A stretch of DNA of 45,852 nucleotides from Pseudomonadota bacterium (lineage in GTDB: Bacteria > Pseudomonadota > Alphaproteobacteria > Micropepsales > Micropepsaceae), in NCBI GenBank assembly GCA_018242105.1, contig JAFECP010000005.1, positions 19,869-65,720 of the forward strand. The letters are read 5' to 3'. This document shows positions 2,335-31,912 of this stretch, in pieces (position 1 is the stretch's first letter; the number at the start of each line of letters is the position of its first letter). Both the position numbers and the translations under genes were made by a program. Below the pieces are notes generated by a model that was not told the origin of the DNA, did no database searches, and was given only the letters and a program-made list of their open reading frames with translations.

Positions 2335-2390
2335 ATAATTTTTCCCAAACCGGCTTGCATTCGCAGTATATGTTCTCTATATGTTCCCGC
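2335..2390 (+). promoter_or_regulatory. LexA-boxed promoter of unknown two-gene cassette
   Basis: A -35 TTGCAT (2355-2360) and -10 TATATG (2378-2383) are separated by exactly 17 bp. Overlapping the -10 is GTTC-TCTATAT-GTTC at 2372-2386, matching the alphaproteobacterial LexA box GTTC-N7-GTTC. An AT-rich AATTTTTCC stretch lies just upstream. Transcription should begin around 2389-2391, at the ATG of the following gene, so the mRNA would be leaderless or nearly so. A homologous promoter lies on the minus strand at 31912-31861; 42 of 52 bases are identical by my count, without gaps. Confidence 0.75.
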
Positions 2391-2897
2391 ATGAAAGAGC
2401 CCGAAGCCCATGCCGGTAATGGCCCGGTCCCCCTCCACGCCCCCGCGGGCCAGGAGGATCAAACGCAGGATTTCACCGACAAGCATGTCGTCCCCGCGGT
2501 GGCGCGGCTGCACAGCGCATTGGCGTCGTGCGATGCGCTTATTTCACGCTACGTGAAACGCGCCACCGACTCTGAAAATTACAGCGCGGATGCGCAGGCC
2601 AAGTTCGCTCTTGTCGCTGCACGCCTCGCGGCGGCGCAAGGCCAAACGGCGGGCGCCATCGCGCGCCTCGCGGATGCGGAGAGCCGTCAGCGCGTCACCA
2701 ACATAAGGGTCGATGATTCTGTTTTCCGCCCGCGCCGCCGCACGGCGGCCGGCGTCAACCGCGCCCCACGAAATAACCCGTCGCACGGTAGCACCGGCAC
2801 AAGCGATTGGGAAAACGGCGAATCCGAAGACGAAAAAACGACATTCAATTCGTCTCCGAAAACGGCCTTCACCGGCCCACGCATCCGGCAAGTCTGA
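2391..2897 (+). CDS. Unknown SOS-associated cassette protein 1
   Basis: This is a 168-residue protein I cannot assign to a named domain. Residues ~25-105 are Ala-rich and predicted helical (VPAVARLHSALASCDALISRY, then AKFALVAARLAAAQGQTAGA). The C-terminal third is polar, rich in Arg, Ser and Asn, and probably disordered. I chose ATG 2391 because it lies 4 nt after the LexA box, at the predicted transcription start. An earlier in-frame ATG would sit inside the promoter. No Shine-Dalgarno is present, which fits a leaderless message. The stop TGA overlaps the next ATG by one base, so the two products are likely coupled. Base composition upstream is AT-richer than in neighbouring genes, suggesting acquired DNA. 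Confidence 0.6.
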   Translation: MKEPEAHAGNGPVPLHAPAGQEDQTQDFTDKHVVPAVARLHSALASCDALISRYVKRATDSENYSADAQAKFALVAARLAAAQGQTAGAIARLADAESRQRVTNIRVDDSVFRPRRRTAAGVNRAPRNNPSHGSTGTSDWENGESEDEKTTFNSSPKTAFTGPRIRQV

Positions 2898-3190
2898 TGG
2901 CCAGGCGCGGCGCTCCCCTCGGCAATCGCAACCGTGTCACCCACGGCTTGCGCACGCGCGAAATGAAAGAAATGCGCGCGATGGTGCGCGCCTGCATCGC
3001 GGAGATGAAACTGGCGGCCGGGCTGGTGAGAGCGGAAGCGGCAAAAGACTTTCTTCCCCCGCTTTGCGGGGGAAGTGCCGAACGCAGTGAGGCGAAGGGG
3101 GTGGCTGCGGCGGAGCAGGCAACGCACCATCACCGCCGCCCCTTCCACCGCTTCGCGGTCCCCCTCCCCCGTAAAACGGGGGAGGGAAAA
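2897..3190 (+). CDS. Cassette protein 2 (GAPLGNRN motif), stop lost to repeat
   Basis: The protein begins MARRGAPLGNRNRVTHGLRT and continues REMKEMRAMVRACIAEMK. The Gly-Asn-(Arg/Lys)-Asn...His-Gly motif is known from small basic alphaproteobacterial proteins and from DNA-associated phage-type proteins; its function is unknown to me. The start overlaps the upstream stop (TGATG). After about 50 residues a palindromic repeat begins at 3053 and is read in frame. No stop occurs there, and the frame stays open antisense to folC and into accD until 4798. The natural C-terminus has therefore apparently been replaced. The end given here is the end of the repeat region, not a stop codon. Confidence 0.45.
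3053..3186. repeat. Palindromic repeat element, copy 1
   Basis: The element is bounded by two hairpins: CTTCCCCC/GGGGGAAG at 3053-3075 and CCCTCCCCCG/CGGGGGAGGG at 3162-3186. An inner complementary pair (AAGGGGG near 3095, CCCCTT near 3140) lies between them. Shared core words with copies 2 and 3 include the GAACGCAGTGAGG-type box and CACCGCTTCGCGGTCCCCCTC. It sits between the cassette gene and the folC stop. In the cassette frame it reads GGSAERSEAKG ... HRFAVPLPR. This copy has a longer inner loop than copy 2. Confidence 0.85.
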
Positions 3191-4510
3191 TCAACTATTC
3201 TCGGCCAGCACCCGGCCCGCCAGATACAGCGACCCGCAGATCAGGATGCGCGGCGCCGGGTCGCCCGGATGCGCGCGCGCCCAGGCATCGACCTGCATCA
3301 TCGCGTCTTCCAGATCGTCGGCCGGCGTGGCGTTGAGGCCCACGGCGCGCGCGGCGTCGTACAATTCGCCGGCGCCGCGCGAGGCCGGCTCGCCATCGAT
3401 CTGCACCGTCGTCACATGCCGCGCCAGCCCGCCGAACGGCTCCAGGAATCCGCGCGCGTCTTTCGTCTTCAACATGCCGCAGATCAGATAGAGCGGCTTG
3501 GGCGACCGCTCTTCCAGATCCGCAAGCGCACGGGAAACGGCGGCGGCGCCGTGCGGATTGTGTCCGCCGTCGAGCCAGACTTCCGCATCGCGCGGCGCAA
3601 GCGCGATCAGCGGGCCTTTGGTGAGCCGCTGCAAGCGCGCGGGCCATTCGACCTTGCGCAATCCGGTTTCGATAGCGCGGTCCACCGCCCAGCCCGGCCC
3701 GGCATGGCGCAACGCCGCGATAGCCGTGGCCGCGTTCTCGATCTGATGCTGCCCGATCAATTTGGGCAGCGGCAGGTCGAGCAAGCCCCTCTCGTCCTGA
3801 TAGGTCATCCGCCCATGCTCGGAATGGCAGAAGAAATCCTGCCCATAAACGAACACCGGCGCGTTCAGCGCATCGGCGCGGCGAACGATGACATCGCGCG
3901 GAACGTCGTCCTGGTTGCCGACCACCAGCGGAACGCCGCGTTTCACAATGCCAGCCTTCTCCGCCGCGATGCTGGCGATGTTGGTGCCAAGAAACTCCGC
4001 GTGATCGAGGCCGATCGGCGTGATCACCGTCATCAGCGGATTGGCGATAACGTTGGTGGCGTCGTACCGGCCGCCAAGCCCCACTTCCAGCACCAGCGCA
4101 TCGGCGGGATGGCGCGAGAACGCAAGGAACGCCGCGCACATCAGGATTTCAAAGAAGGTGATTTCCTTTCCGTCATTCACCCGCTCGCATTCTTCGAGCA
4201 CACCGGCGAATTCTTCATCGCCGATCAGGGTTCCCGCGATGCGGATACGCTCGTTGAAGCGAACCAGATGCGGCGAGGTATAGACGTGGACCCGCTTGCC
4301 GTTCGCCTCCAGCATGGCGCGCAGGAAGGCGCAGGTGCTGCCCTTGCCGTTGGTGCCCGCGACGTGGAACACCGGCGGCATCTGCAATTCAGGATGGCCG
4401 AGTTCGGCCAGCAGCCGTTCGATCCGCTCCAGCTTGAGATCGATGCCCTTGGGATGAATGTAGAGAAGGCGGTCGAGGATGGCATCGCTGCGGGACGCAG
4501 CAACGCTCAT
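3191..4510 (-). CDS. folC: Dihydrofolate / folylpolyglutamate synthase
   Basis: This 439-residue Mur-ligase-type enzyme adds Glu to dihydropteroate and to folates. Near the N-terminus is the P-loop [15 protein letters not shown], followed by [14 protein letters not shown], the folate-binding segment of Fol[13 protein letters not shown] and LDHAEFLG follow, and the C-terminal domain carries [10 protein letters not shown]. The length is normal. ATG 4510 overlaps the accD stop by 4 nt (ATGA), the standard accD-folC arrangement. It is the last gene of the long minus-strand run, and copy 1 of the palindromic repeat abuts its stop and may help end transcription. Confidence 0.95.
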
Positions 4511-31560: not shown

Positions 31561-31577
31561 TGGCAGGCCAGTCTTTG

Positions 31578-31857
31578 CGCCCGCCCAAAAGAAAAGCCCC
31601 ATAGAATCCGCGCCGCTTTCGCGGGCGCGCCCCATGAGGCCTTTCGGTGCCCAGCTACGCAGCAAGCCCTAGGATGGCCGTCTTCCAGGCCAACCAGTGA
31701 GCGCCTTCGCTCCAACCTCCCCGGTTTGCATGCGGAAACCGGATCGAGCCATCGCCGGCCTGCCGATCTCCGCGCGGGGTGCCGCAAGCGCCCCCTTACC
31801 TGTCTGTCCCTGCGATCATCAGAGCTTCACGGCTGTTTATCTCCCGTCCATTACCCG
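31578..31857 (-). ncRNA. Candidate SOS-controlled non-coding transcript
   Basis: A LexA-boxed promoter at 31912-31861 points into this region, but no credible reading frame follows; the first ATG (31851) gives four residues. Several strong stems are present: GGGGTGC/GCGCCCC around 31778-31796, CCGGTTT/AAACCGG at 31722-31742, GAGCG/CGCTC around 31700, and CCGC-GAAA-GCGG near 31615-31628. A T-rich stretch (minus strand CTTTTCTTTT, near 31590) could end it. It does not match tmRNA, RNase P, SRP or 6S RNA as I know them. It could also be degraded DNA. Confidence 0.25.
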
Positions 31858-31860
31858 ATT

Positions 31861-31912
31861 GAACATATAGAGAACAGATAGGACTAATGCAAGCCTTATT
31901 AGGAAAAATTTT
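31861..31912 (-). promoter_or_regulatory. Orphan LexA-boxed promoter (paralogue of 2335-2386)
   Basis: Read on the minus strand, it has TTGCAT (31892-31887), a 17-bp spacer and TATATG (31869-31864). The LexA box GTTC-N7-GTTC overlaps the -10 (31875-31861). It aligns without gaps to 2335-2386 over 52 bp with 42 identities by my count. Similarity stops at the end of the box. It faces away from the toxin-antitoxin genes. Confidence 0.7.

Follow-up and report, generated by a model that had tools for sequence, protein, structure and literature searches.

What do two small, overlapping genes placed directly behind a LexA-type box do for the cell, and is it the box that controls them? The pair lies in a 45,852-nucleotide stretch of alphaproteobacterial DNA, referred to here as the window (Table 1). 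A first-pass annotation had described it as a cassette of two genes, coupled by a TGATG overlap and preceded by a near-ideal LexA site, and had named a damage-inducible DNA-binding pair, a mobile-element remnant and a defence module as candidates. The overlap is real: gene 1 starts with the ATG at 2391 and ends with the TGA at 2895-2897, the last base of which opens the ATG of gene 2 (2897; protein beginning MARRGAPLGNRN). The LexA site is also as good as claimed. Four bases separate the end of box GTTCTCTATATGTTC from the gene 1 start codon, and the box with its flanking bases (2370-2386) matches exactly the Caulobacter LexA consensus, (T/A)TGTTC-N6-TGTTC, as given in the available part of PMC13384398. 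A sigma-70 promoter read by eye at the pair was discarded, as a scan for -35/-10 elements of the E. coli type found none.

Table 1. Features of the two-gene locus and of the structured RNA copy in the window.
Feature	Position	Strand	Remark
LexA box GTTCTCTATATGTTC	2372..2386	+	GTTC-N7-GTTC; fits the Caulobacter consensus in the available part of PMC13384398
Gene 1 (P0001), 168 aa, helical, polar variable tail	2391..2897	+	
Gene 1 conserved helical core, predicted hairpin of two helices	2481..2729	+	
CGACATTCAATTC 13-mer, inside gene 1 tail	2839..2851	+	11 times in genome, partly behind LexA boxes
TGATG stop/start overlap, gene 1/gene 2	2895..2899	+	
Gene 2, GAPLGNRN domain	2897..3049	+	frame without stop here, open to 4798
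Hairpin and T-run, terminator-like for folC	3053..3075	-	similarity to sister copies of gene 2 ends there
folC, convergent neighbour	3191..4510	-	named by eye from translation
Structured RNA, window copy	31654-31875 (whole stretch about 31570-31875)	-	LexA box and terminator-like end

Taken alone, the LexA site is weak evidence, because the GTTC-N7-GTTC pattern occurs three times in the window against 1.31 expected from shuffles. The genome as a whole (3.22 Mb, 78 contigs) gives it weight. It contains 102 exact matches to the pattern, against 60 for the reversed pattern, so that roughly forty boxes are likely to be real. A profile of 61 rows finds ten genes with the GAPxGNxN motif (GAP genes) at unrelated sites. 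Nine have an exact box within 710 bp upstream, where about 0.23 would be expected from 102 sites in 3.22 Mb, and the tenth has a site with one mismatch. Likewise, a matrix derived from 23 boxes with no GAP gene downstream scores a site upstream of all ten and downstream of one. Most boxes lie about 155-240 bp from the GAP gene where it stands alone and 358-710 bp away where gene 1 intervenes. Boxes are also found before lexA, ssb/uvrA, an MmcB-like gene, an Lhr-like helicase gene and a radical-SAM gene (names assigned by eye). Since the same pattern precedes nine of the ten GAP genes as well as lexA, ssb/uvrA and other repair-like genes, the window site is convincing, and the pair is very probably under SOS control in this genome.

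In other genomes the association persists but thins out. Exact boxes were found upstream of 12 of 65 loci and downstream of none (six loci lacking the motif were left out); with the matrix, the figures were 14/65 upstream and 2/65 downstream, 65 of 69 loci being scored and four with short flanks dropped. Among the nearest relatives, LexA sites precede 2 of 25 loci and follow none; these loci, 25 of the 33 places listed outside the genome, partly overlap the earlier 65, and three are short. Thus, it is not the case that homologues never carry LexA boxes; such boxes are, however, rare elsewhere, which argues that SOS control is biased towards this lineage.

The pair belongs to a genuine family. 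A 28-row profile identifies six gene 1 copies in this genome, each adjoining a GAP gene, leaving four GAP genes that have no gene 1. Across all units collected, gene 1 is present in 36 of 79, and at 26 of 30 gene 1 loci a GAP motif follows within 1 kb; of the four loci where none was found, two are short. Among 60 sampled genomes of the bacterial family, at least 50 match the window GAP domain at E values up to 1, and 30 match the gene 1 profile at E values up to 1e-4. In a sample of the class, the GAP profile is found in 11 of 241 genomes and gene 1 in five, three of them in the own genus in either case. GAP units are also present in Rhizomicrobium electricum DSM 21034, a relative available in culture; the two of its loci that were read have no exact LexA box. 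The pairing and these counts indicate a conserved operon found mostly in this bacterial family; judged by the same profiles, the bare GAP motif is more widespread than the gene 1/GAP pair. In a tree of the GAP domain (49 columns, mostly unresolved) the copies of this genome are scattered and one origin remains compatible, the domain being too short to tell whether they represent one expansion. Programmed frameshifting between the genes was considered and rejected, as the relative frame, worked out by hand from the locus coordinates, is -1 at some loci and +1 at others. No description of the family was found in the open-licence literature, a coverage that makes this absence weak evidence.

Conservation in the gene 1 protein is confined to about 75 residues comprising two helices and an R/H-rich end, the tails being variable. 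Of the structure prediction that the first-pass annotation had proposed for the pair, the gene 1 core yielded an AlphaFold2 model in which two helices form a hairpin (mean pLDDT 75.8, pTM 0.43). Fold searches with this model returned no PDB match, nor any viral match below an E value of 3. The profile searches proposed for both proteins were productive for gene 2, as described below; for gene 1 they gave no convincing match in Pfam, NCBIfam, PHROGs, PADLOC or PDB. Searches with single sequences produced nothing useful for either protein. One match of gene 1, to PHROG 17671 (E 0.0041), was not reproduced with the core alone. Relatives of gene 1 were absent from the phage and plasmid collections and the viral contigs searched. 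As to DNA binding by gene 1, the database and fold searches brought up no structure, family or solved relative in support.

Gene 2 encodes a basic protein (12 K+R against 5 D+E in 51 residues in the window copy) whose domain has five invariant positions in 61 rows: G5, G9, N10, N12 and G17. Here the profile searches led to phage small terminases. Weak matches to PHROG 1889, called terminase small subunit, come from 40 of the 61 GAP members (best E 9e-4), and the GAP profile aligns with the phage terminase-like profile at an hhalign probability of 97 over 21 columns. In viral contigs, the motif occurs in proteins adjoining a terminase-like ATPase (neighbours identified by eye). Because the motif is short, the resemblance could be convergent. 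A split small terminase, made up of gene 1 and gene 2, was entertained and dropped: the oligomerising core of small terminases was sought in gene 1 by profile comparison and was not found. Nor are the proteins clearly phage structural fragments, an outcome that the first-pass annotation had regarded as fatal to its proposal. The likeness is to phage packaging, spans 21 columns of gene 2 and involves no part of gene 1.

The same annotation had ended the region at 3052. No stop codon occurs there. The gene 2 frame continues through the hairpin and then, antisense to folC and codon-aligned with it, to 4798 (phases compared by hand), while its resemblance to sister copies stops near 3048, where the hairpin starts. 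Lacking a stop of its own, the window gene 2 may thus be damaged. Carried further, this would make the window copy a decaying operon, with promoter and gene 1 intact and gene 2 shortened by the folC terminator hairpin. The long open frame and the end of sister similarity at the hairpin fit such a history. However, many family members have run-on frames: counted from +150, 35 of 79 units stay open for 200 codons, compared with 18 and 16 in the two alternative frames, so that an open gene 2 may often be the look of these genes. The true excess may differ, as the motif was placed by hand at eight loci and their frames may therefore be counted one over (those of L201 and L207 plainly are). On balance, we consider decay improbable. 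Alternatively, the units could be what is left of a phage-derived or mobile element, with cargo that retained an SOS promoter, although this too seems unlikely to us. Besides the terminase-like motif in gene 2, such an origin is suggested by the dispersal of the units, the ten of which adjoin unrelated, including housekeeping, genes (by eye; among them smpB, mfd, cysS, mraZ and folC). No GAP motif was found beside folC in the stretches read from 16 same-genus relatives with a folC match. Moreover, in two genome pairs the alignment is limited to the whole or a portion of the unit (705 bp and 292 bp) and does not reach into the flanks. Against mobility, inspection by eye of about 1.5 kb on each side of the units of this genome revealed no transposase, integrase, portal or large terminase, and no convincing flanking or terminal repeats surround the window copy. 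In addition, two units have stayed in place between one pair of closely related species, with flanks 84-87% identical, and among the matches listed none exceeds about 50% identity to the window GAP domain. Of the mobile-element proposal, then, the dispersed and variable sites stand; a transposase was not seen and the copies are only distantly alike. No relative read shares both flanks of the window copy.

Two observations concern the folC site in relatives. In one of them (L149), a translated stretch near folC resembles the later part of the GAP domain and lacks the motif. In another (L135, position 1465), a LexA-type box next to folC is followed by another gene pair altogether, TcmP-like and Gp37-like by eye.

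The reading we favour, though tentatively, is that the pair is an SOS-induced, probably nucleic-acid-binding two-gene operon of an undescribed dispersed family. From what can be seen directly, namely the box, the genes, their overlap, the family, the pairing and the repeated LexA association in this genome, we infer the following course. LexA would keep the promoter closed until DNA damage opens it. Gene 1 would then supply a helical-hairpin protein and gene 2, presumably translated by coupling to gene 1, a short basic protein with the GAPxGNxN motif. Most likely, the two products would form a complex that binds nucleic acid and, once the SOS response is under way, acts on DNA that is damaged or being replicated, and several diverged paralogues would work in one cell. 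The terminase-like motif that gene 2 appears to carry would fit a DNA-binding pair. The same small, coupled, multi-copy genes at variable sites would also suit a toxin-antitoxin-like or growth-arrest pair, with gene 1 as partner and gene 2 as basic effector, kept silent by LexA until DNA is damaged. A precedent exists in the class in the Caulobacter higBA toxin-antitoxin pair, which LexA holds at a perfect site according to the available part of PMC13384398. Pfam, NCBIfam and PADLOC, however, yielded no toxin or antitoxin family, and the four GAP genes of this genome without gene 1 disfavour a strict pair; we hold this alternative to be unlikely. An anti-phage defence module, the last of the original candidates, might likewise take the form of a small two-gene cassette at variable sites. 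It found no support: when the gene 1 family was scanned, PADLOC gave one weak match among 28 members (E 0.0027), and no defence gene was recognised by eye among the neighbours viewed. That role is very improbable.

GAP units are not the only repeated sequences behind LexA boxes in this genome. In the window itself, a box identical to GTTCTCTATATGTTC (31861-31875, minus strand) heads a transcript-like stretch, an apparently non-coding structured RNA of about 290 nt. Six copies exist in the genome, with 80% mean column identity over the core, and all six have a LexA box 56-61 bp upstream of the core. The consensus of the longer stretch has 59 predicted pairs, 18 of them with changes on both sides, and no Rfam family matched. 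With a model built from the six copies, the RNA is detected in 10 of the 60 bacterial-family genomes.

A short dispersed element forms another set. It consists of a G-rich block, GTGAAAACGACTGC, CCACAAGATGTTG and then CGACATTCAATTC or a variant of it, and was found at ten loci (L242, L245, L246, L249, L251, L253, L254, L038, L085 and L088). A LexA box accompanies it at seven sites, and the stretches read contain no GAP gene; the frame of a possible peptide is not preserved at every site. In this genome the 13-mer CGACATTCAATTC has 11 occurrences and its reversed control none; 15 other genomes together contain it twice. Also recurrent is a related 12-mer, GAATTGAATTCA, which occurs 24 times in 12 other genomes (L159-L182), again with none for the reversed control; it is read in several frames and is often, though not exclusively, upstream of GAP genes. 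Finally, two loci (L062, 1500-1830; L072, 1497-1827) share a near-identical stretch of more than 300 nt behind LexA box GTTCCTATTATGTTC, possibly an RNA or an insertion.

SOS regulons are usually viewed as sets of genes for repair and checkpoint functions. In this genome, at least 22 of the exact LexA boxes precede dispersed units (nine GAP, six RNA, seven element). If the units act on DNA, they would constitute an unrecognised multi-copy branch of the damage response, approachable through the cultured R. electricum and its GAP units. A bolder and doubtful extension would make LexA the lineage's master switch of dispersed small-unit families (ten gene 1/GAP units, six RNAs and seven boxed elements), such that the SOS response fires a genome-wide battery of DNA- and RNA-acting parts, perhaps a single system of protein, RNA and DNA site.

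Several known systems invite comparison. Small proteins of alphaproteobacteria in which a Cys/HGG stretch precedes GAPxGN (L186-L190) share the GAPxGNxNAxKHG tail with gene 2. Unlike the ten GAP genes here, they give one match per genome in the sample, and none of the five has an exact LexA site in the 720 bp upstream, L189 having one at -749. To our knowledge, these proteins have no family name. The SOS-controlled small toxins of E. coli, DinQ, TisB and SymE, as described in the material available, are LexA-controlled small products as in our case, from which the present genes differ in forming a coupled pair with a conserved helical core. We know of no homology between them and the pair. Phage small terminase subunits (PHROG 1889 and 509) have the GAPxGNxNAxKHG motif in common with gene 2 over 21 columns; the rest of the terminase is absent from gene 2 and gene 1 has no match. 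Comparable in arrangement to the window pair, as far as the available part of PMC13384398 allows the comparison, is Caulobacter higBA, where again two small genes of an alphaproteobacterium lie behind a perfect LexA site. The window pair differs from it in matching no toxin or antitoxin family and in belonging to a set of about ten diverged copies rather than occupying one locus.
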